From: an uncultured Pelagibacteraceae bacterium
Lineage (GTDB): Bacteria > Pseudomonadota > Alphaproteobacteria > Pelagibacterales > Pelagibacteraceae
DNA length: 64,000 nucleotides
NCBI GenBank assembly: GCA_902622545.1
Contig: CACNQD010000003.1
Coordinates: 62,001 to 126,000, forward strand
Direction: 5' to 3'
This document shows positions 3,382 through 18,969 of the stretch, piece by piece; the stretch's first letter is position 1, and the number at the start of each line of letters is the position of its first letter. A model generated the notes under the pieces. It ran no database searches and had not been told where the DNA came from. It saw only the letters and a list, made by a program, of their open reading frames with translations. A program made the position numbers and the translations under genes.

Positions 3382-3431
3382 AAAGATAGTAATAACTGGC
3401 TTTATCTCAAATACTCATAACAAATATACAT

Positions 3432-3465
3432 TTTTCTAATACCTTCGGTTTTCTAATACCTTCGG
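3432..3465 (+). repeat. 17-bp perfect tandem duplication
   Basis: The unit TTTTCTAATACCTTCGG occurs twice head to tail (3432-3448 and 3449-3465) in the spacer between two autotransporter-like genes. Part of it (TCTAATACCTT) also matches the last codons of the upstream gene at about 3367-3377, so it may come from local duplication of the gene end. Confidence 0.8.
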
Positions 3466-3517
3466 TAGCAGTTTATAATTTTACATATGTGTCTTTTTAA
3501 ATTAAAAATAGCCTAAA

Positions 3518-6421
3518 ATGGACATTAAGAACTCAATTAGCAATTTTATCAAAATTATTTTTTTTTTAGTAATTTTTGGATGGTGGAGCAACCAAGCCCA
3601 AGCTTATACGGTTTTAGGAACTGGTACTAGTGCTTTACTTGGTGGAGACCTCACAGATCCTGAAAATAATGGTATTGATGGATCAAATACAAATTGGAAT
3701 TGGTCGTCAATAGATGCAAGTTCTGAAAAATATTGGGGAAGTGAAGGTTCTTACAACGTATTTGATAACATTGTTGGTTCTGGTAATGCTAAATGGTGTT
3801 GTAACGGACCAACACAATGGATATCGGTAGGATTTTCACAATCGTATGTCTTAACTCATTTTACAATTACCTCAGGTAATGATGTTCCAGACAGAGATCC
3901 AGATATTTTTAAAATACAAGGTTCAAACAATGGTAGTGATTGGACTGATATTTATTCATATAGTAATAACGGAACCTCTCCATGGGGTTCAGATAGATAT
4001 GAAGTAATCAAATGGACTGGCGGTGGTGATGACTTTGATACTCCTGCTCCTTACTCTTATTTTAGATATTACGCTACCTCGGTTGTAAATGGTAGTATGC
4101 ACCAAATCAATGAAATTGAATTTTTTGGAACAGCAGATGCTATTCCGACTTTAAGCTCATCAACTCCAGCTGATGATGCAACAGACGTAACAGTATCAGA
4201 TAATATAGTTTTAAATTTTAGTGAAAATGTTGATGCAGAGAGTGGAAATATTACTATAAAAAAAACTACCGATAATAGTACGGTTGAAACAATTGATGTT
4301 ACAGGAGGTCAAGTTACTGGATCTGGCTCAACTCAAATAACAGTCAACCCCTCATCTGACTTAACAGGATCGACAGAATATTATGTATTAATTGATGCAA
4401 CAGCTTTTGATGATGCAACAGGTAATTCTTATGCAGGTATAAGCTCTACCACGGCCTTAAGTTTTACAACTGAGGATAATATCGCGCCAACTCTTTCTTC
4501 TTCTGTACCAGCTGACAATGCTACTGGAGTTGCAGTCAATGCTAATATCGTTCTTACGTTCAGTGAGAGTGTTAGTGCAACATCTGGAAATGTAACTATT
4601 AAAAAAACATCTGATGACAGCACAGTTGAACAAATAGGTGTTACAAGTGGTCAGGTTACAGGTAATGGAGCTCAAGGTCCAATGGGTCAAGCAGGCGGAG
4701 ATCAAATTACAATAAATCCCTCAAGTGATTTTGATAGTTCCACTGAATATTATTTATTAATTGATGCGACTGCGTTCGAAGACGGTTCAAATAATGCTTA
4801 TGCTGGAATAAGTTCCACAACAGCATTAAGTTTTACTTCAGTTGATAATGCTAATCCTACACTTTCATCTTCTACACCTGCAGATGATGCAACGGACGTG
4901 GAACTAGATGCTAACATTATTTTAAATTTTAATGAAAGTGTTGATGCAGAGACTGGAAATATTACAATTAAAAAGACATCCGATGATAGTACAGTTGAGC
5001 AAATTGATGTTACAAGTGGTCAGGTGACAGGGTCAGGCTCAAGTCAAATAACAGTTAATCCTTCATCTGATTTTGATCCAGGTATAGAATATTATGTTTT
5101 AATAGATGCAACAGCTTTTGATGATGCGTCGAGTAATTCTTATGCAGGAATTAGCTCAACAACTGCTTTAAGTTTTACAACAAATTCAAAAACTGATCCA
5201 ACAACGGATAAAAATGTAACTGGTTCAATCAAATCACTCACAGAACAAGTTAAAACTTCATTTAGGACATCAGTTGGAATAGTTACTAGTAGACTTAGTT
5301 ATTTAAGACATAATAGAACTAGTAATAATTTTACAAGCAATAATATAAAATTAGATTTTAATAACGCTATATTAGCTTCTTTGATGGAAACTATACCAAT
5401 ATCAACTTATACACAGCCTAATTTTATACCTGATGATTGGTCTTTGTGGAGTGAAGGTTCTATAAGTGTCTCTAGAATTGGTGATGGCGGTAGTTCAGAA
5501 AACTCTCCAAGAGAAATTGACAGTCAAAATATAGCCTTTGGTTTTGATAAAAAAATAAATGAGAGTGATCTTTTAGGTTTTGCGTTTCAATATGGATTAA
5601 GTGACACTGATGTCGGAAGTGTCGGGACAGGTATTGATACTGAAAGTTTAAGCTTAACTATATATAGAACAAAACCTTTTAGTAATAAAAACTTTATACA
5701 AGGTTTAATTGGATTTGGAATAATCGAGTCTGATAGTGTGAGAAAGAGTTCTGGAAATACATTAACAGGCTCAAGAAACGGTAATCAATTATTTGGATCA
5801 ATTAATTATGGCAAAACTTATGTTCAAGGTGAATTTAATGCAACACCAATTGTAAGGCTTGATTTAGGTTATACTGAACTAGACTCTTATACTGAAACAG
5901 GTACAGATGCATTATCTTATTCTAAACAAACTTTTGAAAGTGCACTTGGATCAATTGGAATGGAGATTAATGATGTAATTAAGTTTTCTGATAGTTCATT
6001 AAAACCATTTGGAGTAATTGAATATAGTTTAGATTTTAGTAATTCTTCTGATGTAAAAATGAATTATGTTTCTGATACAGCAACGACATATACATTCGTA
6101 CAAGGAGTTAGTTCTACACATTTAGCATCATCAGAAATAGGGTTTTATTATGAGGCCAGGGATAATATTAAACTAACATCAAGCTATAAACGAATACAAG
6201 GAAATGAGAGCGAAAGAACAGACTCTTTAAGATTTGGTTTTAATTATAGATCAATGAGAAAAACAGATTATTCACTTAATATTGGCGGAAATAATGATTT
6301 AGCCGCTATTATTGATGTAACAAGAAATGTAAATGGATTGCATCTAAATTTCAATGCAAAACAAGCATTTAATGAATCTTCTGATAAAAATGCTCATTTT
6401 TCTATATCTAAAAAGTTTTAA
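3518..6421 (+). CDS. Autotransporter-like protein with discoidin-like domain and three Ig-like repeats
   Basis: 967 residues. A signal peptide with likely cleavage after NQAQA (residue 29) is followed by a domain (~30-205) resembling F5/8 type C (discoidin) carbohydrate-binding folds: YNVFDN, WISVGFSQ, IQGSNNGSDW and INEIEFFG near its end. Three ~112-residue repeats follow (209-322, 323-445, 446-557), each starting PTLSSS(T/V)PADxAT and ending ALSFT, like the bacterial Ig-like Big_5 / SwmB type. A linker and a barrel (~640-967) ending in Phe complete the protein. It shares the barrel style of the two upstream genes but has a different passenger. It is probably a surface adhesin; the ligand cannot be told from sequence. 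Confidence 0.72.
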   Translation: MDIKNSISNFIKIIFFLVIFGWWSNQAQAYTVLGTGTSALLGGDLTDPENNGIDGSNTNWNWSSIDASSEKYWGSEGSYNVFDNIVGSGNAKWCCNGPTQWISVGFSQSYVLTHFTITSGNDVPDRDPDIFKIQGSNNGSDWTDIYSYSNNGTSPWGSDRYEVIKWTGGGDDFDTPAPYSYFRYYATSVVNGSMHQINEIEFFGTADAIPTLSSSTPADDATDVTVSDNIVLNFSENVDAESGNITIKKTTDNSTVETIDVTGGQVTGSGSTQITVNPSSDLTGSTEYYVLIDATAFDDATGNSYAGISSTTALSFTTEDNIAPTLSSSVPADNATGVAVNANIVLTFSESVSATSGNVTIKKTSDDSTVEQIGVTSGQVTGNGAQGPMGQAGGDQITINPSSDFDSSTEYYLLIDATAFEDGSNNAYAGISSTTALSFTSVDNANPTLSSSTPADDATDVELDANIILNFNESVDAETGNITIKKTSDDSTVEQIDVTSGQVTGSGSSQITVNPSSDFDPGIEYYVLIDATAFDDASSNSYAGISSTTALSFTTNSKTDPTTDKNVTGSIKSLTEQVKTSFRTSVGIVTSRLSYLRHNRTSNNFTSNNIKLDFNNAILASLMETIPISTYTQPNFIPDDWSLWSEGSISVSRIGDGGSSENSPREIDSQNIAFGFDKKINESDLLGFAFQYGLSDTDVGSVGTGIDTESLSLTIYRTKPFSNKNFIQGLIGFGIIESDSVRKSSGNTLTGSRNGNQLFGSINYGKTYVQGEFNATPIVRLDLGYTELDSYTETGTDALSYSKQTFESALGSIGMEINDVIKFSDSSLKPFGVIEYSLDFSNSSDVKMNYVSDTATTYTFVQGVSSTHLASSEIGFYYEARDNIKLTSSYKRIQGNESERTDSLRFGFNYRSMRKTDYSLNIGGNNDLAAIIDVTRNVNGLHLNFNAKQAFNESSDKNAHFSISKKF
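4142..5188 (+). repeat. Three tandem Ig-like domain repeats inside the autotransporter gene
   Basis: The repeats start near 4142, 4484 and 4853 and are similar in both DNA and protein. The third resembles the first at its start (PADDATDV) and the second in its middle (KKTSDDSTVEQI), suggesting past recombination among copies. The second repeat carries a short Gly-rich insertion that the others lack. Confidence 0.8.
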
Positions 6422-6906: not shown

Positions 6907-7410
6907 ATGAGGAATAGAGGTTTCACCCTAATAGAACTCTTAGTTGTTGTAGCAATCATCGGTATTTTAGCTGCAGTAGGAGTGGTTGCTTATAACGGGT
7001 ACACAAGTAGCGCTAAAAAGAAAACGATGGAAAGTAATTCTAAAACAATTCAAAAATATGCAATGGCTGAAATTGCAAAATGTCAGTTGGGTACAAATCT
7101 TACCGAGGGGCCAACTGTAAGTAAACATATAACTTCATGTTCAACTGGAGGTGCTGGAAATTTAAACAGCAATGTTTGGGCACAGTATTTTATTGATGTT
7201 TTTCAAAGCAAGATAAAAAACCCTTATGGCGGATCTTCAAGTAATCCAAGCGGTTTATTAAATAGTGGCCCGACTAGAAATGCAGGAGAAATAGTTTTAG
7301 TTGGATGGAACCAATGTAAAACCGATCCATGTTTTTTGATAAGAGCGGCTTATGACGAGAATGGTTCAAAAAAAGATTTATCTGACCTTCAAGTACCAAC
7401 TGGATTTTAA
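6907..7410 (+). CDS. Type IV pilin-like protein, array member 1
   Basis: 167 residues. A short prepilin leader MRNRG is followed by the class III signal FTLIELLVVVAIIGILAA with the conserved Glu at mature position 5, so a prepilin peptidase should cut after Gly5. The block G5-T33 is shared by all pilin-like genes in the window. The rest is divergent but keeps KC at 58-59, KNPYG in the middle, and CKTDPC near the C-terminus, which could close a disulfide loop. It lies 2 nt before the second pilin gene, so the pair is likely co-transcribed. No assembly machinery is encoded nearby. Confidence 0.88.
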   Translation: MRNRGFTLIELLVVVAIIGILAAVGVVAYNGYTSSAKKKTMESNSKTIQKYAMAEIAKCQLGTNLTEGPTVSKHITSCSTGGAGNLNSNVWAQYFIDVFQSKIKNPYGGSSSNPSGLLNSGPTRNAGEIVLVGWNQCKTDPCFLIRAAYDENGSKKDLSDLQVPTGF

Positions 7411-7412
7411 AC

Positions 7413-7955
7413 ATGAAGCTTTCCGGTTTCACACTCATAGAACTTCTAGTCGTTGTAGCAATCATTGGTATTTTAGCTGCTGTGGGAGTGGTGGCTTATA
7501 ATGGGTATACATCTTCAGCAAAAAAAGCAGTTGTAAAACAAAATTTTAGAACAACTGTTAGTTATATGCAGGGTGAATTTGCTAAATGTGGAATCGATAG
7601 TTCAAGTAGAATTTTTGGTGATCCAGGTGTTCCATGTAATGATATATATATTAGTAAGCAATGGAGCTGTGCAGCAATAACACTTTCACATAAATTTAAA
7701 TTAGCTAATCCTCTTGATACAGCAAAACAAGCACACTTTGGCACAACTTATAATCATCCATTAGGAAATTGTAAAGTTACCAGAACTAACTCTAAAGGTG
7801 TTGGTGCCGGTGATGGACAAGATGATGGGGAAGTTACAATGGTCATTTGTCCAAGAAATCCATATTGTTCCGGTAACACTGGCAAATTTAAAATAATGTG
7901 GTGGTGGGATAACAAACAAATGCAAGATTCCGCAATTATTGATCCAAATTTTTAA
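7413..7955 (+). CDS. Type IV pilin-like protein, array member 2
   Basis: 180 residues with leader MKLSG, the common N-terminal helix block and Glu at mature position 5. In the ungapped alignment to its neighbours it keeps E55 and KC at 58-59. The C-terminal part has extra cysteines and a CPRNPYC motif, a C-x5-C version of the C-x4-C loop of its paralogues, and the NPY-like block is ANPLD. The tail is unusually Trp-rich (IMWWWDN). This pair is separated from the other nine pilin genes by the dehydrogenase-like gene, the mcrBC island, tRNA-Leu and nadK. Confidence 0.88.
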   Translation: MKLSGFTLIELLVVVAIIGILAAVGVVAYNGYTSSAKKAVVKQNFRTTVSYMQGEFAKCGIDSSSRIFGDPGVPCNDIYISKQWSCAAITLSHKFKLANPLDTAKQAHFGTTYNHPLGNCKVTRTNSKGVGAGDGQDDGEVTMVICPRNPYCSGNTGKFKIMWWWDNKQMQDSAIIDPNF

Positions 7956-9309: not shown

Positions 9310-9337
9310 TTTTTAGTTTCTTGAATCATTCTCAGAT

Positions 9338-9460
9338 CTAGAGAGATAAAATAAAAAAAATTTACTTATTCATCTTGTTCAATTATAAATATTAGCATAA
9401 ACACTCATGAAAATAAGTCATGCCCTCGTGGTGAAATTGGTAGACACAAAGGACTTAAAA
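9338..9460 (+). repeat. Left 123-bp direct repeat of the tRNA-Leu island
   Basis: It matches 13458-13580 with six mismatches by eye (about 95%), four of them clustered at 9413-9419 just before the tRNA start. It contains a copy of the tRNA promoter (TTTACT 9361-9366, 17 nt, TATAAA 9384-9389) and the tRNA-Leu 5' part from 9422. The duplicated promoter now points into the island. Confidence 0.88.
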
Positions 9461-9468
9461 GCCGAGGG
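9422..9468 (+). pseudogene. Truncated tRNA-Leu(UAA) remnant
   Basis: Bases 9422-9460 equal the first 39 nt of the intact tRNA-Leu (13542-13580), up to the end of the anticodon loop (CTTAAAA). The next eight bases, GCCGAGGG, equal the 3' acceptor-arm segment of the intact gene (13616-13622 region), after which the sequence is unrelated and there is no CCA. The anticodon 3' stem, variable arm and T arm are missing, so no functional tRNA can form, although CCCTCG and CGAGGG could still pair. Confidence 0.8.
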
Positions 9469-9516
9469 ATTCACTTTTTAGTCAGTCCATAGTAGTCTCT
9501 AATAGTCCAAATCCTT

Positions 9517-9529
9517 TAAAATCCTATAA
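9517..9529 (+). repeat. Left 13-bp inverted repeat of the island cargo
   Basis: TAAAATCCTATAA is the exact reverse complement of TTATAGGATTTTA at 13419-13431, immediately after the mcrC stop. The pair encloses all three cargo genes. Confidence 0.55.
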
Positions 9530-9585
9530 GTTTTAAAAAGATAAAGATTATTTTGTTTAAAACTCACATTAATTATTTTTGTCAA

Positions 9586-9605
9586 ACTAGTACTAAACTA
9601 GTACC
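9586..9605 (+). other. 20-bp candidate recombination or operator site, left copy
   Basis: ACTAGTAC-TAA-ACTAGTAC-C is an 8-bp word repeated with an 11-bp period, so both halves face the same side of the helix. A copy with one difference lies at 13439-13458 in the same orientation. It is 23 nt upstream of the first cargo gene, so it could be a site-specific recombination core or an operator controlling the island. Confidence 0.5.
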
Positions 9606-9628
9606 TTAAGAGATAATAAAATAAAATT

Positions 9629-10429
9629 ATGGGTTTAAAAAGAGATAGCAAAGGTAATTTAGCTGAAGTTAGTCCTTTAAGAAGTCGAAAGGGAAGTATC
9701 TATAAAAAAGGAACTAATGAAACTTTTAAAATTAGTCGATCTAAATTTAGTAGTTTTTTAGACTGCAAAAGGTGTTTTTACTTAGATAGAGTTAAGGGAT
9801 TGAAAGATCCAGGTATGCCAGGTTGGTCACTTAATGTTGCAGTTGATGAACTTCTAAAAAAAGAATTTGATTTGCTCAGAGCTCAAAAAAAACCACATCC
9901 AATATTTAAAAAATATAATCTAAATTTTATTCCATATCAGCATAAAGAATTAGATCGTTGGAGAAATTCCTTAACCGGTGGAATTTCTTATTTAGATGAA
10001 GATACAAATCTTCAGATTCATGGTGGAGTAGACGACATTTGGTATGATCTTGATAATAAAGAATTGGTTGTGGTAGATTATAAAGCCCAATCAAGTAATA
10101 CTAAGGTAGAAACAGATGTGTATCTAGAGAGCATATATCATCAAGGATATAAAATTCAGATGGATATATATGTTCACATCTTAAGAAAGATGGGTTTTCA
10201 AGTTTCAGACACTTCATATTTTTATGTGTGTAACGCTGAAAAAAGCTTTGATAACTTTGAGGGAAAATTAAACTTTACCATAACATTAGTTCCATATGTT
10301 ACTGATACTTCTTGGGTAGAAAGCAATATTAAAGAAATGAAAAAAACATTAGAACTTGATAGTGTTCCTAAAATTAATAAAAGTTGTGAACAATGTATGT
10401 ATTTAGATGCAGGTAAGGAATTTATTTAA
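9629..10429 (+). CDS. PD-(D/E)XK nuclease-family protein, Cas4/RecB-like
   Basis: 266 residues. The core has HGGVDDIWYD followed by VVVDYKAQ, matching motifs II and III (D ... D-x-K) of PD-(D/E)XK nucleases, with a Q-x3-Y-like helix further on (YKIQMDIYVHIL). Near the N-terminus is SFLDCKRCFYL and near the C-terminus CEQCMYL. These two Cys-x2-Cys pairs are placed like the iron-sulfur ligands of Cas4/AddB-type nucleases. It lies 2 nt before mcrB and is probably part of the same operon. It may be an accessory nuclease of the McrBC system or an independent defence gene. No CRISPR array or other cas gene is present. Confidence 0.7.
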   Translation: MGLKRDSKGNLAEVSPLRSRKGSIYKKGTNETFKISRSKFSSFLDCKRCFYLDRVKGLKDPGMPGWSLNVAVDELLKKEFDLLRAQKKPHPIFKKYNLNFIPYQHKELDRWRNSLTGGISYLDEDTNLQIHGGVDDIWYDLDNKELVVVDYKAQSSNTKVETDVYLESIYHQGYKIQMDIYVHILRKMGFQVSDTSYFYVCNAEKSFDNFEGKLNFTITLVPYVTDTSWVESNIKEMKKTLELDSVPKINKSCEQCMYLDAGKEFI

Positions 10430-10431
10430 CT

Positions 10432-12369
10432 ATGAGAGCAATTTCCTCAGTATTCAAAGATATTTTTGAAAATTATCAAAAAGATTATGAAGGTCCATTC
10501 GACTCATCAAAAACATCTTATTCATTATTCAAAGAGCTTGATGAACATATTAAAGAAATGGTTAACAGTGATGATAATTTGGAAACGCATTGGAGTGTTG
10601 GTAAAGGGAATTGGACACAAGTACCTTGGTTTGCTGTTAGAGATAGAAGAACTAAGTCATCAGCACAAAAGGGCATAGGTATTGTTGGATTATTTAAAAA
10701 AGATATGTCAGGTTTATATCTTTGTATAGCCCAAGGTACAACTCAGCCACTTAAAGATTATGGAAAAAAAGGTGGAGAAGAATTTTTGTTGGAACAAGCT
10801 GAAAAAGTAAGAGATATTGTAAAATATTTAAAAGATAAACAATTTAAATTAGATAACGAAATCGATTTAAAAGCTACAGGTGGAGTTGCATTAACATATA
10901 AACCAAGTGTTTGTGTTCATAAGTACATGAGTGCTGGATATGATTTTAATGGCCAATTTATTGAAGACTTATTAGATTTGGTTAAGGCTTATAAAGATGT
11001 AGTTGCTAAAAATTTAGACTTCACCTCAGAAAATAATCTTAAAAAAAATCATTGGGTTATAGCTTGTGGAATAAATAGTAATCAGTGGGATAATTTTAAA
11101 GATAATAATTTAATAGCTATTGGATGGGATAGTCTAGGAGATTTATCAAAGTTTAAATCAAAGCAAGAAATATTTGAAAAATTAAAAGATGAAAGATCTG
11201 AAAACGACCCAGATCCAAGAAATGATGCTCTATGTTGTTATGATTTTGTAAATTCTATGAAGGTTAATGATATTGTTTTTGTAAAAAAAGGAACTTCTAA
11301 ATTGGTTGCCTATGGTAAAATAATTGGTGATTATAAGTACGATGAAAATTTAAGTGAATATAGAAATATTAGATCAGTGGAATGGATAAACATTAAAGAA
11401 AATGATATAGATCCCATTACAGGTAAAACGCTAACAAACTTTAATAAGTATCCTGATACAGTTGAGAAATATTTAAAACTAATGGCAAATGATAATAACA
11501 AAGATTTAGAATTTAACGAATTGAAAGATACTTTTTTTTCTGAAGAATTTTTTAATAATATTATAGATACGCTAAAAGTAAAAAAAAATATTATTTTACA
11601 AGGTCCACCAGGAACAGGAAAAACATTTATTTCAAAAAAAATCGCCGAAAGAATAACTGGAAAAAAAGAAAATATTTTTTCAATTCAATTCCATCAGTCA
11701 TATTCTTATGAGGAATTTGTAGTTGGTTACAAGCCTAACAGTGAAGGTAATTTTGCTTTACAAAAGGGTTCATTAATTCAAGTTTGTGAAAGAGCTAAGC
11801 AAAATGAAAATGAAAATTTTGTAATGTTCATTGATGAAATTAATAGAGCAAACATTAGTAAAGTTTTTGGAGAATTATTAAGTTTAATAGAGAATGATAA
11901 AAGAGGTCCTGAGAATGCAGTAAAAATCCTATATTCAGAAAATGACATTAATTTTTATATTCCCAGCAACCTATATTTTGTTTGCGCAATGAATACAGCA
12001 GATAGATCTTTAAAAATGGTAGATTACGCATTGAGAAGAAGATTTTCTTTTTTTGAATTTAAACCAGAGTTCGATAAACCAGAATTCAAAAATTTCCTAA
12101 AAGATAAAAATGTAAATGCAAAAACTATAGATAGAATTGTAAATAATATATCTAAAGTAAATCAACAAATTTCAGATGATAATTTTGAGCTTGGAGATGG
12201 GTATTGTATTGGTCATAGTTATTTTTGTCCAAAAGGTAATTCGTCAGATAGTTTTGGTGATCAATGGTATGAACAGATAATTGAATATGAAATAAAACCA
12301 TTAATCAATGAATATTATTTTGATAAACCTGATCAAGCAGCTGAATTAATTGACACTCTTTACGATTAA
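10432..12369 (+). CDS. mcrB: McrB-type AAA+ GTPase of a methyl-directed restriction system
   Basis: 645 residues. The N-terminal region (~1-185) resembles the MrcB/DUF3578 DNA-recognition domain. The middle (~207-325) has the look of an EVE-type modified-base reader (HWVIACG, IAIGWDSLGDL, VKKGTSKLVAYGKI). The AAA+ module has Walker A GPPGTGKT (391-398), Walker B FIDEINRA (466-473) and the McrB signature MNTADRS (520-526). McrB hexamers hydrolyse GTP and translocate DNA, and with McrC cut DNA carrying modified cytosines. The stop overlaps the mcrC start. Having two candidate reader domains in one protein is noteworthy; the target modification is unknown. Confidence 0.88.
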   Translation: MRAISSVFKDIFENYQKDYEGPFDSSKTSYSLFKELDEHIKEMVNSDDNLETHWSVGKGNWTQVPWFAVRDRRTKSSAQKGIGIVGLFKKDMSGLYLCIAQGTTQPLKDYGKKGGEEFLLEQAEKVRDIVKYLKDKQFKLDNEIDLKATGGVALTYKPSVCVHKYMSAGYDFNGQFIEDLLDLVKAYKDVVAKNLDFTSENNLKKNHWVIACGINSNQWDNFKDNNLIAIGWDSLGDLSKFKSKQEIFEKLKDERSENDPDPRNDALCCYDFVNSMKVNDIVFVKKGTSKLVAYGKIIGDYKYDENLSEYRNIRSVEWINIKENDIDPITGKTLTNFNKYPDTVEKYLKLMANDNNKDLEFNELKDTFFSEEFFNNIIDTLKVKKNIILQGPPGTGKTFISKKIAERITGKKENIFSIQFHQSYSYEEFVVGYKPNSEGNFALQKGSLIQVCERAKQNENENFVMFIDEINRANISKVFGELLSLIENDKRGPENAVKILYSENDINFYIPSNLYFVCAMNTADRSLKMVDYALRRRFSFFEFKPEFDKPEFKNFLKDKNVNAKTIDRIVNNISKVNQQISDDNFELGDGYCIGHSYFCPKGNSSDSFGDQWYEQIIEYEIKPLINEYYFDKPDQAAELIDTLYD

Positions 12370-13418
12370 TGAGTAAGAATATTCCAATAAAGAACATCTA
12401 TTATTTATTAATTTATGCATGGGATAGATATCAAGAAGGAAAATCTGTTAATCTTGAAATAGAAAAAGCTCCAGACTTACCTAATTTACTTTCAAATTTA
12501 TTATTTAAGTTGATGTGTAGAGTGATTAAAAAAGGTCTAGATAAAGATTATTTTGAAGAAAATGAAATTTCAAGTTTTATTAAAGGAAAAATATTATTCA
12601 ATGATGTCATAAAAAAAAATCTTATTAAACAAGGAAAATTATCTGTTCAAATTGATAATCTGGGTAATGATACTCAGGTCAATAGGTATATTAAAGCAAC
12701 TCTACTGAAACTAAAGAAAAATAAAAACTTAGAAATAAACAATAAAAAAAATCTTTCTTTAATTCTAAGATTTTTGGATGACGTTAAATCAACAAATAAT
12801 TTTAGTGAGATGGAAAAATCTATCAAATTGAATAAAAATAATAGTTACTACGTATTCCCATTACAAGTTTGCAAAATGATAAATAATATCACCATTCCAT
12901 CTAAAAATGCAGGTGAGTTTGTTTTTAAAGATTTTAGAGATGATGAATTAAGAATGTCTGAAGTCTTTGAAAAATTTGTTAGGAATTTTTATGCAACTGA
13001 ACAAAAAATTTTTAGAGTAAAGAAAGAAAAAATTAAAATTGATGCTCAAGGAGAACAAAAATTTATGGATTTAATGCCTTCAAAAGAAACTGATGTCACT
13101 TTGCGAAGTAAAAATAAAACAATAGTTATAGATACAAAATATTATAAAGAACCTCTTAAAGAACATTATGGTAAATTCAAACCTAAGTCTGACAATATTA
13201 ATCAAGTATCTGATTATTTAAAAAATATGGAAAAGCTTAATTATCCAGACAATAAAGCCGAGGGAATATTACTTTACCCAGTTGTAAGTACCCAAAAAAG
13301 AATCGAAAGAACATCTGGAATGTATCAAGGTCATAAGCTTACTCTATATAGTTTGAACCTAAATCAAGATTGGAAGAAAATTCATAATGATTTATTAAAT
13401 CTTGTAGATTTAAATTAG
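12369..13418 (+). CDS. mcrC: McrC-type endonuclease subunit
   Basis: 349 residues, starting on the last base of the mcrB stop, so the two are translationally coupled. The N-terminus NIPIKNIYYLLIYAWDR is typical of McrC proteins. The C-terminal PD-(D/E)XK nuclease part shows LMPSKETDVTLRSKNKTIVIDTKYYKE, where the Asp of DVTL and the Asp and Lys of IDTKY are the likely metal and catalytic residues. McrC stimulates McrB GTPase and supplies the cleavage activity. Its stop at 13416-13418 touches the right inverted repeat. Confidence 0.85.
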   Translation: MSKNIPIKNIYYLLIYAWDRYQEGKSVNLEIEKAPDLPNLLSNLLFKLMCRVIKKGLDKDYFEENEISSFIKGKILFNDVIKKNLIKQGKLSVQIDNLGNDTQVNRYIKATLLKLKKNKNLEINNKKNLSLILRFLDDVKSTNNFSEMEKSIKLNKNNSYYVFPLQVCKMINNITIPSKNAGEFVFKDFRDDELRMSEVFEKFVRNFYATEQKIFRVKKEKIKIDAQGEQKFMDLMPSKETDVTLRSKNKTIVIDTKYYKEPLKEHYGKFKPKSDNINQVSDYLKNMEKLNYPDNKAEGILLYPVVSTQKRIERTSGMYQGHKLTLYSLNLNQDWKKIHNDLLNLVDLN

Positions 13419-13431
13419 TTATAGGATTTTA
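13419..13431 (+). repeat. Right 13-bp inverted repeat of the island cargo
   Basis: TTATAGGATTTTA is the exact reverse complement of 9517-9529. It is followed directly by a partial second copy (TATAGGAT at 13430-13437). Confidence 0.55.
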
Positions 13432-13438
13432 TAGGATA

Positions 13439-13458
13439 ACTAGTACCAAACTAGTACC
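13439..13458 (+). other. 20-bp candidate recombination or operator site, right copy
   Basis: ACTAGTAC-CAA-ACTAGTAC-C differs from the left copy (9586-9605) at one base and has the same orientation. It abuts the right 123-bp repeat. An AGAGATAA-like stretch follows both copies. Confidence 0.5.
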
Positions 13459-13580
13459 TAGAGAGATAAAATAAAAAAAATTTACTTATTCCTCTTGTTC
13501 AATTATAAATATTGGCATAAACACTCATGAAATTCATTAATGCCCTCGTGGTGAAATTGGTAGACACAAAGGACTTAAAA
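13458..13580 (+). repeat. Right 123-bp direct repeat of the tRNA-Leu island
   Basis: This is the copy that continues into the intact tRNA-Leu. It pairs with 9338-9460 at an offset of 4,120 bp. Confidence 0.88.
13481..13509 (+). promoter_or_regulatory. Candidate promoter of tRNA-Leu and nadK
   Basis: TTTACT (13481-13486), a 17-nt spacer and TATAAA (13504-13509) lie 32 nt upstream of the mature tRNA 5' end. The same elements are conserved in the left repeat copy (9361-9389). Confidence 0.5.
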
Positions 13581-13627
13581 TCCTTGCCCTTTTGGGAGTG
13601 CCAGTTCGAGTCTGGCCGAGGGCACCA
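13542..13627 (+). tRNA. tRNA-Leu(UAA)
   Basis: 86 nt with encoded CCA. The acceptor GCCCTCG pairs with CGAGGGC. The anticodon stem AAGGA/TCCTT encloses loop CTTAAAA, giving anticodon UAA. A long variable arm (CCCTTTTGGGAG region) and T loop TTCGAGT are present. It is the functional copy next to the truncated duplicate at 9422. The nadK start codon lies 3 nt after the CCA. Confidence 0.95.
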
Positions 13628-13630
13628 CAA

Positions 13631-14392
13631 ATGAACAAAATTATATCTGATACAAATAAAAAATCTCAAAAGATTAAGTCCTTTTTAATTAAAAAATTAA
13701 AAAATAATAAATTAAAAAATAATTTGATTGTTGTGATAGGAGGAGATGGCTTCATGCTTAAAACACTGAAGAAAAATATAAAAAGTTCTAGAGCATTTTA
13801 CGGAATTAACTCTGGTAACTATGGTTTTCTAATGAACAAGTTTTCTCCAAATAATATAATTAAAAATTTATCAAAAGCTAAAATGATATCAATTTCTCCA
13901 TTAGAAATGAAAGTTATAACCAAAAATAGAGTATCAAAAAAATATTTAGCTATCAATGAAGTATCTATTTTAAGACAAAGTAGACAAGCAGCCTCATTAC
14001 AAGTTGTTTCAGGAAAAAAATATATTATAAAAAAACTAATTTCAGATGGAATTTTAATTTCAACACCTGCTGGAAGTACTGCATATAATATGTCAGTGCA
14101 TGGTCCGATATTAAGTTTAAATTCAAAAAAGTTATCAGTGTCTCCAATTAGTGCTTTTAGACCTAGAAGGTGGAGAGGTAAAATTATTAGTGATAAATCT
14201 ATTATTCAAATTAAAAACCTAAATCCTTTGAAAAGACCAGTTAGTGCGGTTGCAGATAACGTTGAAATACGTAATGCAAAAAAAATAGTTATAAACACAA
14301 ATAAGAAAATTAAATTTAATCTTCTGTACGATTCAAATAGAAGCCTACAAAAAAAAATTAAATTAGAACAATTAAGAAGAGAAATAAATTAG
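13631..14392 (+). CDS. nadK: NAD kinase
   Basis: 253 residues from ATG 13631. The longer open frame from 13592 would start inside tRNA-Leu and is rejected. The protein phosphorylates NAD to NADP. The family motifs are all visible: GGDG (37-40), GINSGNYGFL, AINEVSI, and the TPAGSTAY stretch. It is a short NAD kinase, as in other alphaproteobacteria. Only 3 nt separate it from the tRNA CCA, so tRNA 3' processing would release an almost leaderless mRNA. The first gene of the nine-pilin array begins 2 nt after its stop, so pilin expression may depend on the same transcript. Confidence 0.9.
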   Translation: MNKIISDTNKKSQKIKSFLIKKLKNNKLKNNLIVVIGGDGFMLKTLKKNIKSSRAFYGINSGNYGFLMNKFSPNNIIKNLSKAKMISISPLEMKVITKNRVSKKYLAINEVSILRQSRQAASLQVVSGKKYIIKKLISDGILISTPAGSTAYNMSVHGPILSLNSKKLSVSPISAFRPRRWRGKIISDKSIIQIKNLNPLKRPVSAVADNVEIRNAKKIVINTNKKIKFNLLYDSNRSLQKKIKLEQLRREIN

Positions 14393-14394
14393 TG

Positions 14395-14937
14395 ATGAAA
14401 CAAAAAGGCTTTACGCTTATAGAACTCTTAGTAGTTGTAGCAATCATTGGTATTCTAGCTGCAGTAGGAGTTATTGCATATAATGGGTATACGAGTAGTG
14501 CTAAAGCTAATGCGGTGAAACAAAATCACAAACAAGCAATGAAATATACCAAAAATGAATTAATGAAATGCTCAATTGGTGAAACATCTATTATGGAAGG
14601 ACATGTTATATGTAATAATACATATGGACAGAATGTTTTTCATCCACCGGGACTTGGTGCACAAAAAGTATCAGAGGCTCTTGTTAATATTAAAGCTTAT
14701 AGATCAGGGAGATACGATTGGGGTGTTTTAAGGAATTTTAAAAATCCTTATAATACAAATGCTCCTGGTGTTAGATCTGGTTTTGGTTACACAGTTGGAC
14801 AAGTTAACATAAGCTCAACAGGTGCTAAACAAAACACCAATAAAACTGATTATGCTAGAATAAATTTTATGACTTGTGTTAAAGAACCATGCTCTGGAGA
14901 TAATATAATTGAGGAGTTTGTATATTTTCAAGAATGA
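14395..14937 (+). CDS. Type IV pilin-like protein, array member 3
   Basis: 180 residues from ATG 14395; the overlapping GTG at 14392 is possible but less likely, since MKQKG is the leader of most paralogues. It is the only member with Ile instead of Val near the end of the N-terminal helix (VGVIAYNGYT). It keeps E55, KC at 58-59, a GE pair after it, KNPYNT in the middle and CVKEPC near the end. The predicted mature protein begins FTLIE after Gly5. It directly follows nadK. Confidence 0.88.
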   Translation: MKQKGFTLIELLVVVAIIGILAAVGVIAYNGYTSSAKANAVKQNHKQAMKYTKNELMKCSIGETSIMEGHVICNNTYGQNVFHPPGLGAQKVSEALVNIKAYRSGRYDWGVLRNFKNPYNTNAPGVRSGFGYTVGQVNISSTGAKQNTNKTDYARINFMTCVKEPCSGDNIIEEFVYFQE

Positions 14938-15419
14938 TAAAACAAAAAGGCTTTACATTAATAGAACTTTTAGTCGTTGTAGCAATCATTGGTATCCTTG
15001 CTGCTGTAGGTGTTGTTGCTTATAATGGGTATACAGCGAGTGCAAAAAAAAACGCAGTGAAATCAAATCATAAGAATGTAGTCAAATACATAGTTAACGA
15101 AACTATGAAATGTATTACAGGAGAGGATACAGCAATGGGTGGTGAATTAGATTGTACTAAACAATCTCAAAGTAATTGGAAAGATTTTGTGGCAAAAGCT
15201 GTTGAAAAATCACTGAGTGATTTTAAAAATCCATATGACACTTCCAGAAAAGCTCTTACCCATGGAGGGGACATAACCAATGACAATGATGTCGGTTATA
15301 TAAGGATGAGATCACCAGGATCAAAAATTGAAGTCATGAGTTGTATCCAAACACCTTGTTCAGCCACAAGATGCTCATCTGATAATCATATTTGTAGTGG
15401 AGACATAAACCTTAATTAA
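14934..15419 (+). CDS. Type IV pilin-like protein, array member 4
   Basis: 161 residues. The start overlaps the previous stop (ATGA), which implies translational coupling. The leader is MIKQKG. Landmarks are MKCITGE, FKNPYDT and CIQTPC, followed by an extra cysteine-containing tail (TRCSSDNHICSG). The KNPYDT block and its surroundings resemble array member 11 (18490) more than the immediate neighbours, which suggests shuffling or duplication across the array. Confidence 0.88.
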   Translation: MIKQKGFTLIELLVVVAIIGILAAVGVVAYNGYTASAKKNAVKSNHKNVVKYIVNETMKCITGEDTAMGGELDCTKQSQSNWKDFVAKAVEKSLSDFKNPYDTSRKALTHGGDITNDNDVGYIRMRSPGSKIEVMSCIQTPCSATRCSSDNHICSGDINLN

Positions 15420-15937
15420 TGAAACATAAAGGCTTCACTCTAATAGAACTTCTAGTCGTAGTAGCAATTATCGGTATTTTAGCTGCGGTAGGGGTGGTTG
15501 CTTATAATGGGTATACAAGTAGCGCGAAAGCAGGTGCAACAAAGGCCAATTTTAAAATGATGCAAAAATATATGTCTGCAGAAATAGCAAAATGTGACTT
15601 GGGTGAAACACAAATCATGAAGAGAGATAATGGGACTGGACTAAAATGTTCTGGCATTACATATGGATTAATCATTCCTCATTTACAACAACTATTTAAC
15701 ACTGACAAAAAGCTGGTTAGCACTTATACAGATTTAACTTATGTTAGAAATACTGGACCATCAACAAATTCTAGCAGTATAGGTTCAATTCATTTAAATG
15801 GAATATCGCATGATAAAACATTTAATCCAGGAGCCTCGCCACCTCTTGATAAAAATGATATAAGATTAACTTCATGTTTTAAGGAACCATGTACTGATGC
15901 AAACAACAACTTATCCGCTGTCATCAACATCGACTGA
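15419..15937 (+). CDS. Type IV pilin-like protein, array member 5
   Basis: 172 residues, starting on the last base of the previous stop. Leader MKHKG, standard N-terminal helix, then EIAKCDLGE, like the first pilin of the distant pair (EIAKCQLG). CFKEPC occurs near the C-terminus. The NPYD block is not seen; the middle is instead Thr/Ser-rich. The 3' end overlaps the next gene by 41 nt in another frame. Confidence 0.87.
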   Translation: MKHKGFTLIELLVVVAIIGILAAVGVVAYNGYTSSAKAGATKANFKMMQKYMSAEIAKCDLGETQIMKRDNGTGLKCSGITYGLIIPHLQQLFNTDKKLVSTYTDLTYVRNTGPSTNSSSIGSIHLNGISHDKTFNPGASPPLDKNDIRLTSCFKEPCTDANNNLSAVINID

Positions 15938-16430
15938 AAACAAAGGCTTTACGCTAATTGAACTTTTAGTCGTTGTAGCAATCATAGGTATTCTTGCGGC
16001 AGTAGGAGTGGTTGCTTATAATGGTTATACGGCTAGTGCTAAAAGAAATGCTACGCTTCAACAACATGAACAAGCAGTCAAATTTATAAATCAATCACTT
16101 AAACTTTGTGATGTTGAGGGAACAGCTACGTTAAAGTTAAGTGATAAAAGAACTATTAACTGCAATGTAACAAATAATGCATCAGGAATTAATTCTTTAA
16201 ATGCTGTTTTTATTCAATATTTTTTGGATCAAGGGTACACAAATCCTTATGATAAGGATGTTGTTGTTGTACACACTGCTAGAAACGGAAGTAATGATAC
16301 TGACGGAAGGATGAGATTTGATGAAACAGAATGTTCTTCGGGCTCTTCAAATAAAAAAATAGCTCTTTGGGTAAAAACTCACAAAGAATACTATAATGTA
16401 ACAATAGCTAAAGATGGTTGGTGTAATTAA
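15897..16430 (+). CDS. Type IV pilin-like protein, array member 6, with long leader
   Basis: 177 residues from ATG 15897, the only standard in-frame start upstream of the helix. The leader is therefore 17 residues (ending STENKG) instead of 5-6 and is encoded inside the 3' end of the previous gene. The usual ATGAAACAAAAAGGC-like start has been lost here. Cysteines are KLCDVEG, TINC, TECSSG and a C-terminal GWCN, and the central block is YTNPYDK. The C-x4-C motif is absent, so its disulfide pattern must differ from most paralogues. Confidence 0.83.
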   Translation: MQTTTYPLSSTSTENKGFTLIELLVVVAIIGILAAVGVVAYNGYTASAKRNATLQQHEQAVKFINQSLKLCDVEGTATLKLSDKRTINCNVTNNASGINSLNAVFIQYFLDQGYTNPYDKDVVVVHTARNGSNDTDGRMRFDETECSSGSSNKKIALWVKTHKEYYNVTIAKDGWCN

Positions 16431-16926
16431 ACAAAAAGGCTTCACTCTAATAGAACTCTTAGTCGTAGTAGCAATCATCGGTATTCTTGCTGCAGTAGGG
16501 GTTGTTGCATATAATGGATATACAAATAGTGCCAAATCCTCAAACATAAAATCTACATGTAAATCAATTGAAAAATTTATACGTCTTGAAACTATGAAAT
16601 GTAACACAGGGATGACAGATTATATATTTGATCAAACCAATAGTTTAAACTTTCTCTGTCCTCTAAGAGTACAAAATCCTGGAAGAATTGCGAAAAATGC
16701 ATTTATTAATTACGTTGGTTATTCCAGATGTTCTTTTTGCACAATGAAAAATCCTTTTAAGCAGGAAAAATCCTTGGTTGTATTTAATAATTGGGGAACA
16801 ATTAACGACAATCATCTGGGTTATGTGTTTATAAGCGATAACAATACAGGAATAGATTTATATTGTTGTCATACTACTCCTTGTAAAGATAGTGCAAATC
16901 ATACAAGATTAAATATAATTCCTTAA
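16414..16926 (+). CDS. Type IV pilin-like protein, array member 7
   Basis: 170 residues. ATG 16414 lies 17 nt inside the previous gene and gives leader MVGVIKQKG; no closer standard start exists. Landmarks are MKCNTGM, MKNPFKQ and CCHTTPC. It has additional cysteines in the middle (FLCPL, SRCSFC), making it one of the most cysteine-rich members. Confidence 0.86.
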   Translation: MVGVIKQKGFTLIELLVVVAIIGILAAVGVVAYNGYTNSAKSSNIKSTCKSIEKFIRLETMKCNTGMTDYIFDQTNSLNFLCPLRVQNPGRIAKNAFINYVGYSRCSFCTMKNPFKQEKSLVVFNNWGTINDNHLGYVFISDNNTGIDLYCCHTTPCKDSANHTRLNIIP

Positions 16927-16927
16927 A

Positions 16928-17374
16928 ATGAAACAAAAGGGCTTTACGCTAATTGAACTTTTAGTTGTTGTAGCAATCATTGGTATTCTCGCTGCTGTGG
17001 GAGTGGTTGCTTATAATGGGTATACGATAGCTGCAAAGAAAAACGCTAGCAATTCCCAACATAAAGCTGTAGCCAATTTAATAAGAAATAACATTCAATT
17101 ATGCGAAATTACTGGAGAAAACATTCAGCTGAATGGAACCACTCATGTTTGTGGTGAACCTGGTGGTACACTCATGTATAAATATGTAAATCACTTTACA
17201 AATGAAGGATGGAAGTGCCCTTACGATAAATCTTTAATTATGGATAGTTTTAAATGCAAGCCTGGAAGAACAGGAATCTCTGTAAGAGTTATAAATGGAA
17301 TAAAACATATGGACGTTCATACTTACGATACAGCAACAACCGTTTACAGAACTTTTATTGAATATGATAAATGA
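16928..17374 (+). CDS. Type IV pilin-like protein, array member 8
   Basis: 148 residues, the shortest member, starting 1 nt after the previous stop with leader MKQKG. Landmarks are QLCEITGE and WKCPYDKS (a Cys replaces the Asn of NPYD). It lacks the C-terminal C-x4-C loop, so the Cys of KCPYD or FKCKPG may be the disulfide partner. The C-terminal third is basic and contains RTGISVRVING, a strand-like stretch. Confidence 0.87.
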   Translation: MKQKGFTLIELLVVVAIIGILAAVGVVAYNGYTIAAKKNASNSQHKAVANLIRNNIQLCEITGENIQLNGTTHVCGEPGGTLMYKYVNHFTNEGWKCPYDKSLIMDSFKCKPGRTGISVRVINGIKHMDVHTYDTATTVYRTFIEYDK

Positions 17375-17385
17375 TATAATTTTTT

Positions 17386-17970
17386 ATGAAACGTAATGGC
17401 TTCACCCTAATAGAACTCTTAGTTGTTGTAGCAATTATCGGTATCCTCGCTGCAGTTGGAGTAGTTGCTTATAATGGGTATACAAAGAACGCTAGTTGTT
17501 CAGGATTTAAGTCTCAACATAAAAATGTAGTTAAGTTAGCCCAAACAACTTATACAATGTGTTCAATAGATGGATCTACTTATATGAATGTTCCTCCAGG
17601 ATTTGGCTGTAGTAATCAACCTAGATCAGGCATGACAAAGATTAGTGGTGGAGGTTCTACGAAATGTATAAGGAAATGGGATTGTAAATCTCATTGGGCA
17701 GGACAATCACAAAACGCTGGCTTATCAAGCGGTCATTTTGTTTCTCATGCAAGAGCTGAGTTTAATACTCCTCCAAACACAAGCGGATTTATTAGAGAAG
17801 ACCAATGGCAAAACTTTTTAAAAGCTAACTATCCAGCTAGACCTGGTATTACAAATATTAGAGATAAAGGTGTTAACATGCACATTGCTACCTATCTTGG
17901 AGATTGTTCAGGAGGAGATTTCACAAATGCAAGTGGCTCTTATCTTATTGATGAGATAGTATGGCCTTAA
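17386..17970 (+). CDS. Type IV pilin-like protein, array member 9
   Basis: 194 residues, the longest and most divergent member after the helix. Leader MKRNG, then the standard block but with TKNASC directly after it, adding an early cysteine. It has TMCSIDG, GFGCSN, TKCIRKWDCK and LGDCSGG but neither NPYD nor C-x4-C. Because it lacks the shared C-terminal blocks it may be a minor pilin or a tip-like variant. It is separated by 11 nt from the gene before and 4 nt from the gene after. Confidence 0.87.
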   Translation: MKRNGFTLIELLVVVAIIGILAAVGVVAYNGYTKNASCSGFKSQHKNVVKLAQTTYTMCSIDGSTYMNVPPGFGCSNQPRSGMTKISGGGSTKCIRKWDCKSHWAGQSQNAGLSSGHFVSHARAEFNTPPNTSGFIREDQWQNFLKANYPARPGITNIRDKGVNMHIATYLGDCSGGDFTNASGSYLIDEIVWP

Positions 17971-17974
17971 GACT

Positions 17975-18490
17975 ATGAGACAAAAAGGCTTCACACTAAT
18001 AGAACTTTTAGTCGTAGTAGCCATCATCGGTATTCTTGCTGCTGTAGGAGTTGTTGCTTATAATGGGTATACGAGTAGCGCTAAAGCAAAGCAGTCTCAA
18101 GCAAATATGGAAGTAGTATATAAAACTTGGCTTAATGAAAAGGCACTTTGCACAGTTAAAGATGGAAGAGAAAATGCTTTATGGAATAAAACAACTTGCC
18201 AAGTTCTGTTAAGCTCAACTACCAGTGATGTGAGTAGAGTTTCTGGTATTTTAATGACATATTTTGGAGCAAATAATAACTATGGTTTTGGACAACCAAT
18301 TCTAAATACTTATAGACCTATGAAAAATTTCTTTACAACAAATTGTTTTGTAAATACCACTCAAGATGCAAACATTGGCGAACTAACTGCTTGTTGGGAT
18401 AATAATAGAGGTGATCTTGTTTTTAATGGTTGTTTTAAATCACCTTGCTCTGAGGCATCTAATAGATTTCAGAAAAGAATTGGTTATTAA
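17975..18490 (+). CDS. Type IV pilin-like protein, array member 10
   Basis: 171 residues, leader MRQKG. Landmarks are ALCTVKDG, TTCQVL, TACWDN and CFKSPC near the end. The NPYD block is replaced by NNYGFGQP. The stop overlaps the start of the next gene by one base. Confidence 0.87.
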   Translation: MRQKGFTLIELLVVVAIIGILAAVGVVAYNGYTSSAKAKQSQANMEVVYKTWLNEKALCTVKDGRENALWNKTTCQVLLSSTTSDVSRVSGILMTYFGANNNYGFGQPILNTYRPMKNFFTTNCFVNTTQDANIGELTACWDNNRGDLVFNGCFKSPCSEASNRFQKRIGY

Positions 18491-18969
18491 TGAAACAAAA
18501 AGGCTTTACGTTAATAGAACTTTTAGTCGTTGTAGCAATCATCGGTATTCTGGCTGCAGTAGGAGTGGTTGCTTATAATGGGTATACTAAAAGTGCTAAA
18601 AGATCAGCATCAATCTCAAATTTTAAACAAGTCGTAAAGTATATCACTAATGAAGTAATGAAATGTTCAACTGGTGAAAGATTTGCAATGAAGGGAAATT
18701 TAAATTGTTCCTATCAAGGTAGATATCAGTGGAAAGATGATGTTGCAGATGCTGCTGTTAAGGCACTAGATAATTTTAAAAATCCTTATGATACAAGAGC
18801 AGCTAATCCAGTAACCAAAGGTGGTCAATATTGGTACGATAAAGATGTTGGCTATGTTAGAATACACACAGAGTCTAATACAAAATTACAAATATGGGTC
18901 TGTGCAGCAACACCTTGCGGAAGTAAACCGCATCCCAATATTTATGATGCCTATACACCGATCCAATAA
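18490..18969 (+). CDS. Type IV pilin-like protein, array member 11
   Basis: 159 residues, leader MKQKG, last intact member. Landmarks are MKCSTGE, FKNPYDT and CAATPC. It resembles array member 4 across its length (TNEVMKCSTGE versus VNETMKCITGE; WKDDVADAAVKALDNFKNPYD versus the WKDFVAKAVEKSLSDFKNPYD region), so the two are recent relatives although six genes apart. Confidence 0.88.
   Translation: MKQKGFTLIELLVVVAIIGILAAVGVVAYNGYTKSAKRSASISNFKQVVKYITNEVMKCSTGERFAMKGNLNCSYQGRYQWKDDVADAAVKALDNFKNPYDTRAANPVTKGGQYWYDKDVGYVRIHTESNTKLQIWVCAATPCGSKPHPNIYDAYTPIQ

Follow-up and report, generated by a model that had tools for sequence, protein, structure and literature searches.

Integron gene cassettes are interchangeable cargo arrays at one site, and tycheposons, the subject of Hackl et al. 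in 2023, are reportedly tRNA-targeted tyrosine-recombinase elements that carry cargo in ocean bacteria. The latter are cited as such in the sections available of PMC10872708. Cis-mobilizable elements (CIMEs) are defined by the keeping of attL and attR, by the absence of integration and transfer genes, and by tandem structures that arise by accretion (PMC5704250, in the part that treats them). Tandem genomic islands occupy ssrA in Dehalococcoides, and 15 of them that have no integration module are suggested to be CIMEs (PMC3146451, in part). Additive flexible islands with small variable cassettes are described, in the portions of the sources at hand, from Actinomarinales (PMC7771536) and from Methylopumilus, as flexible genomic island 2 (fGI-2; PMC10872708). 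Here we describe a 64,000-nucleotide stretch of DNA from an uncultured Pelagibacteraceae bacterium of the SAR11 group (contig CACNQD010000003.1, positions 62,001 to 126,000; the window, whose numbering is used below), in which McrBC genes lie between two copies of the 5' half of tRNA-Leu(UAA). SAR11 bacteria are very abundant and streamlined. We put at roughly three in four the probability that these genes form a non-autonomous, CIME-like cassette with complete att arms, which is moved in trans by integrases of satellite-like elements that read a code in its ends with their N-terminal part.

The window cassette and its relatives resemble CIMEs in keeping both attL and attR, in having no integration genes and in standing in tandem at one target. 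Unlike CIMEs, they duplicate the 5' half of the tRNA together with its promoter, and they carry end-codes that match within an element yet vary between elements. Their integrase-bearing relative is satellite-like, with conjugation not demonstrated, and integrase-less elements outnumber integrase-bearing ones 122 to 3. The Dehalococcoides ssrA islands are likewise in tandem at one RNA gene, with members that have no integration module, but they use a serine recombinase and the 3' end of tmRNA, and the sections seen of that source describe no variable paired code. The Actinomarinales and Methylopumilus islands are similar in that their cassettes are marked by direct repeats of tRNA fragments. 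In Methylopumilus the final 20 bp of tRNA-Lys form the repeat, and the available parts of these papers do not describe an att layout, a code or a source of integrase. The SAR11 cassettes are unlike tycheposons, as these are reported, in lacking the recombinase. Charybdis elements (about 4.6 kb; PMC12324425, in part) were set aside for lack of hallmark genes. The likeness to integron cassettes is in the cargo arrays at one site; the layout of the SAR11 cassettes is instead of the arm-site integrase kind. A 2007 survey of SAR11 hypervariable regions, as far as its text was available, reported that the integron model left no clear signature (PMC2217521). The kind of element is thus already known, as CIMEs, tandem integrase-less islands and tRNA-fragment cassettes. 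SAR11 tRNA-Leu cassettes and matched end-codes appear to be new, no account of either having been found in the literature searched, outside which most subscription papers fall.

The McrBC cassette and its ends

Two direct repeats on the plus strand (9338-9463, the host-side copy, attL; 13458-13583, the element-borne copy, attR) are spaced 4,120 bp from start to start and are identical at 119 of 126 positions (94%). The preliminary description had recognized them as flanking repeats with the promoter and 5' half of the tRNA, which stands, although their length is 126 nt and not 123. Both copies contain the tRNA-Leu(UAA) promoter region and a 39-nt half (9422-9460 and 13542-13580, identical 39/39) that terminates at the anticodon loop, CTTAAAA. 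The same description was right in calling this a tRNA-targeted element with a duplicated 5' half. The whole tRNA (13542-13627) follows the right copy only, and is the sole tRNA-Leu (anticodon TAA) among the five tRNAs that ARAGORN finds in the window. Joining the flanks at the half in silico gives a letter-identical tRNA-Leu(taa), in agreement with the earlier claim that removal of the 4,120 bp would leave the tRNA unharmed.

Just inside both ends is a 19-mer, ACTAGTACNAAACTAGTAC, composed of a direct 8-mer pair, ACTAGTAC-N3-ACTAGTAC. These two copies (9586-9604 and 13439-13457) are the only matches in 64 kb when up to 3 mismatches are allowed (0.06 expected). By pattern search and comparison of loci, the left arm pair starts 164 bp past the start of the half and the right one 103 bp upstream of the tRNA (-103). 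Also at the left end are AGTC three times at 10-bp spacing (9484-9507), beginning 23 nt past the half, and a TATAGGA-type pair on the minus strand (9511-9529), inverted relative to its counterpart at the right end (TTATAGGATTTTATAGGAT, 13419-13437, plus strand). The exact 19-mer also occurs in two IMG/VR contigs; no tRNA was found in either, and these matches were taken as chance. Immediately upstream of the left repeat, at 9319-9337, there is probably a decayed right arm of an older cassette, where a 5/8 pair resembling TCTCGGAT (intact in locus L054) stands at -103 of the left half; an arm probe matches 9325-9370 at 95.7% over 46 nt, mostly downstream of the decayed pair.

The cargo, all on the plus strand, comprises a Cas4-like PD-(D/E)XK nuclease (9629-10429; PDDEXK_1, PF12705, 1.1e-9; PADLOC Cas4, 6.7e-10), McrB (10432-12369; MrcB_N, PF12102, 4.7e-34; AAA_5, PF07728, 2e-27) and McrC (12369-13418; PF10117, 2.8e-28). 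The adjacent McrB AAA motor and McrC nuclease subunit constitute a predicted McrBC type IV restriction system. As noted earlier from the sequence, the element has no integrase inside: the Pfam scan and hidden Markov models (HMMs) of tyrosine recombinases find none between the repeats, and it is therefore not classed as a prophage or an autonomous integrative element.

The element family at tRNA-Leu(UAA)

A set of 198 SAR11-type cellular loci comprises 263 distinct upstream regions and, between one tRNA half and the next, 106 distinct elements, three of which are satellites. Forty loci were picked for strong or double matches and a further group by their type-A flank, and no prevalence is drawn from either. 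The elements often stand in tandem and differ in cargo. Comparison of 43 loci reveals a common plan in most ends. At the left, the half is followed by 23 nt, AGTC x3 spaced by 10 bp, then an inverted TATAGGA-type pair and, at +164 to +166, an 8-mer pair, after which a form of AGAGAGATA comes in many cases. At the right, the order is TATAGGA pair, 8-mer pair at -103, AGAGAGATAAAAT, promoter and tRNA. Other plans are also seen among elements at this tRNA (e.g. L045, L077, L286). Different arms adjoin the same half in L045, L286, L290 and L193, with CTAGTGTAGTT pairs, and in L077, L281, L284 and the left copy of L248, of the GTTAGAC/ACCAG type. Given these varied arm types, multiple integrase systems may share the tRNA-Leu half site.

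The position of the 8-mer pair is constant: a full 8/8 pair starts exactly at -103 in 120 of the 263 upstream regions, compared with a mean of 0.19 and a maximum of 4 at offsets farther than 4 from it. End-to-end agreement was assessed on 90 elements in which a pair is recognizable at both ends, the other 16 of the 106 being excluded. Over 16 code positions the left and right codes are identical in 63 elements and differ at one position in 13, at two in 5 and at more in 9. The mean mismatch is 0.78, as against 5.16 (minimum 4.44) in 2,000 shuffles of the right ends, a test that does not give a strict probability, as the elements are akin and not phylogenetically independent. The ends of one element match regardless of cargo, and adjacent elements of one array often differ in code (in L056, ACTTGTAC and then ACCAGTAC). 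At -103, 26 right 8-mers are read, three of which are one-base frame shifts of others, leaving about 23 kinds. Such matched arm codes offer a natural set for the study of integrase specificity.

Prevalence was taken solely from 45 genomes selected for a completeness of 95% or more, which were searched for the tRNA half with as many as 3 mismatches allowed. The half is matched in 43 of them, with one copy in 20, at least two in 23 (22 without the G168 copy that has 3 mismatches), of which 8 have three, and none in the remaining 2. These extra copies in 23 of 45 high-quality genomes mark a SAR11 hotspot for which a concrete, testable mechanism can be proposed. All 20 single-copy loci were fetched, and 18 have no pair of 7/8 or better at -103. 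Identity between empty and occupied sites over the 1,000 bp upstream is 94.1% for G097/G119, 94.6% for G127/G105, 92.6% for G278/G105, 78.7% for G063/G119 and 81.2% for G017/G670, and all five pairs diverge directly after the half. The comparison of this locus among related genomes that had been proposed at the outset thus finds empty sites and many alternative cargoes, rather than the same genes at the same place in all relatives. Identification of the site with SAR11 hypervariable region 4 (HVR4) was dropped: the G026 locus is a single-copy site among core genes, without an arm pair.

Satellite-like elements and the proposed movement of cassettes

With three kinds of HMM, for which positive controls pass, a tyrosine recombinase is detected in 3 of 125 distinct elements, all of them satellites, and in none of the other 122. 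The McrBC element has only its three cargo genes, transfer genes having been screened in the window only. A scan of IMG/VR (2.9 million contigs) for the core followed by 23 nt and the AGTC array returns three contigs, L234, L235 and L236 (the last being the same contig as L237). In each, the start of a 545-aa integrase closely follows an attP that contains the same 39-nt half, letter for letter, together with an 8-mer pair within 2 bp of -103. A fourth relative, L238, comes from an integrase search. Exact terminal repeats of 99-123 bp, as in circular DNA, are present in L234, L235 and L238, not in L236. Seven elements have an integrase of this kind at the half (L234, L235, L237, L238, L248, L249, L251); each of them encodes a primase-like protein, and L234 and L235 a RusA-like protein in addition. 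None of the 29 satellite proteins put to PHROGs (9 + 10 + 10; part of the gene content) matches a phage structural family. We call the elements satellite-like because they combine the integrase and primase-like genes with the absence of a structural match. In the satellites (L234, 143-214) the left arm doubles as coding sequence for the first residues of the integrase, so that one stretch of DNA specifies both code and N-terminus. In the 13.8-kb contig L237 a 966-aa helicase-like gene (1511-4411) adjoins attP and may be cargo borne by the satellite.

In three genomes (G494, G246, G180) a half and the whole tRNA-Leu(UAA) flank an element with a related integrase and a primase-like gene. The right-end code is ACCAGCAC in G494 and ACTAGAAA in G246, which 13 and 4 of the 90 cassette elements have, respectively; with CTAGGAT(C), these are the right codes common to satellites and cassettes. 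The shared ends and right-end codes bear on whether the cassettes arose, as a CIME would, from an autonomous element by loss of its module. In G180 two cassettes precede the satellite, whose arms are divergent from theirs, an array that bears on mobilization in cis by accretion.

The integrase of L238 suggests which part of the protein reads the code. It is a natural hybrid: left of alignment column 133, 41 informative sites are nearer L249 and 7 nearer L234, and right of it 125 are nearer L234 and 44 nearer L249. The right 8-mer of L238, ACTAGTAA, is one change from the ACTAGAAA of L249. In L238 the N-terminal ~130 residues would accordingly go with the 8-mer, which points to code reading by the N-terminal domain. 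Between L234 and L235 the N-terminal stretch is 23% different, the body 6%, and there are 3 code differences; between L234 and L236 the figures are 3%, 6% and 0. In an AlphaFold model of a satellite integrase (predicted local distance difference test score, pLDDT, 78.7; predicted template modelling score, pTM, 0.44) the N-terminal part is rich in strands, and XerH, lambda Int and Tn1549 Int are matched with E about 1e-5.

In the mechanism we propose, a satellite integrase would bind the arms of a cassette whose 8-mer code suits, and recombination in the anticodon loop (CTTAAAA) of tRNA-Leu(UAA) would insert or excise it. The tRNA would stay whole because the cassette supplies its own promoter and 5' half, and tandem arrays would build up because every insertion recreates the target site. 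The satellite enzyme would thus act in trans, and may be doing so at present. A wider picture, to which we give somewhat less than even odds, is of an addressable exchange of cassettes throughout SAR11, in which the tRNA gene is the docking port and the satellite integrases the motors, the end 8-mer picks the integrase lineage, and codes change by swapping of the N-terminal arm-binding domain.

Several observations weigh against movement by satellite integrases, in addition to the kinship of the elements that limits the shuffle test. In 14 of the 90 elements the ends differ at two or more positions. Relatives of the integrase are rare, occurring in 6 of 399 genus genomes, plus a weak match to another integrase of the window's own genome (G000), and in full length in 2 of 112 genomes at 90% completeness. 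Further satellite searches find few close ones, the contigs L254-L256 being distant (24-25%). The satellites' left pairs are imperfect, with 12-bp spacing, and unlike cassette ends their own ends are unmatched: the three integrated ones, all outside the 90-element set, have end mismatches of 4, 8 and 7. No satellite bearing the window code ACTAGTAC was found, the nearest being ACTAGTAA, and the exact cassette-end patterns (promoter + half; half + type-A flank) have no match in IMG/VR. Over 16 code positions in an anchored comparison, L238 differs from L234 at 8 but also from L249 at 4. Across all 15 satellite pairs code distance is not significantly correlated with that of the N-terminal stretch (rho 0.46, p 0.087; body 0.25), and the solved arm-type binding domains 3ju0, 3jtz and 3rmp match the integrase model weakly (E 0.06-0.13). 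No excised circle or empty junction of the McrBC cassette itself was seen, read data not being at hand.

The cassettes might instead be relics, that is, decayed satellites or prophages with captured host genes, now fixed, with variation spreading only through natural transformation or RecA-dependent homologous recombination of the ~120-bp repeats. Such a history suits elements that have no integrase, whose repeats supply homology and among which decayed-looking arms exist (9319-9337). However, unselected drift should blur both the exact position of the pairs and the identity of the ends, which persists in 63 of 90 elements, and adjacent elements of one array have differing codes; we consider this explanation unlikely. 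It is less probable still that the 8-mer pairs are operators for transcription of the cargo or the tRNA, without a role in recombination. A regulator might bind direct pairs with 11-bp spacing, and the start codon of the first cargo gene follows the left pair of the window by 24 bp, but in the satellites the left pair falls within the integrase coding sequence, and the match between ends is independent of cargo.

Two other sources of recombinase have to be weighed. The preliminary description had suggested that phage enzymes could act in trans, and temperate pelagiphages such as HTVC105P do use the same half: 45 bp of identical 5' half lie just downstream of the HTVC105P integrase gene, and likewise in a related uncultured phage. 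PMC3861242 (in part) also reports 46 bp of tRNA-Leu in a pelagiphage-like contig. However, the AGTC array, TATAGGA pairs and 8-mer pairs are unseen, by eye, around the phage attP, and HTVC105P was set back as mobilizer on that account. There are 167 matches in phage records, none covering 80% or more of the query, and the best 40 of the 167 cover the tRNA half only. Mobilization by these phages is very unlikely, and the satellite-like integrase is the better candidate for an enzyme acting in trans. The probability is slighter yet for a genus-wide chromosomal tyrosine recombinase of ~317 aa that works the cassettes as in an integron. Of 114 genus genomes with a completeness of 90% or more, 103 have a Phage_integrase match, mostly in frames of 307-326 aa among the matches listed, and in G003 and G035, each a single contig, arrays coexist with just one such match, also of that length. 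But the protein is shorter than would be expected of an enzyme that has an arm-binding domain, its role may be that of Xer, and a single enzyme leaves the ~23 codes unexplained.

Only two Phage_integrase genes were found in the genome of the window. The widespread ~317-aa recombinase is represented there by L002 (G000:C3:175477), which with its homologues possibly stands in for Xer, its scores in G000 being far below the XerC/XerD cut-offs. L001 (G000:C3:252685) is a second, different integrase of 326 aa beside small open reading frames (ORFs).

Cargo of the cassettes

Lengths in a set of 121 elements, which excludes the window and the fetched satellites, run from 236 to 11,792 bp (median 2,013). 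In cargo likewise without window and satellites, 114 of 199 distinct non-pilin ORFs (175 clusters) were scanned; the two largest and the smallest were omitted because of a size cap, and 27 pilin ORFs were skipped. Trypsin-like proteases (7) lead the Pfam families of the 114 representatives, followed by N6 methylases and caspase-like peptidases (3 each); GmrSD, HNH and others occur twice or once each, and PADLOC adds Zorya and type IIG models. The PDDEXK gene of the window recurs, by eye, in L067, with another partner gene and another code. Defence is therefore one cargo among many, and the "McrBC defence island" of the preliminary description, correct as to McrB and McrC, is better seen as one cassette of a mixed-cargo family than as a defence island as such. 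Elsewhere in the genus (250 genomes, its own included) McrC has one other match, 45% identical, and the 2.6-kb locus of that match has no tRNA half.

The smallest element, of 236 bp, lies between two halves in L066 (minus strand, 7705-7941). It has the code and no ORF of at least 60 aa, and may be a minimal cassette akin to a miniature inverted-repeat transposable element (MITE) or an internal deletion. Type IV pilin-like genes stand in rows inside the cassettes of L048 and L056. A row of the same kind occurs in the window at 14392-18969 (also 6907-7955), where the genes share a near-identical start, GFTLIELLVVVAIIGILAAVGVVAYNGYT, and differ in the remainder.

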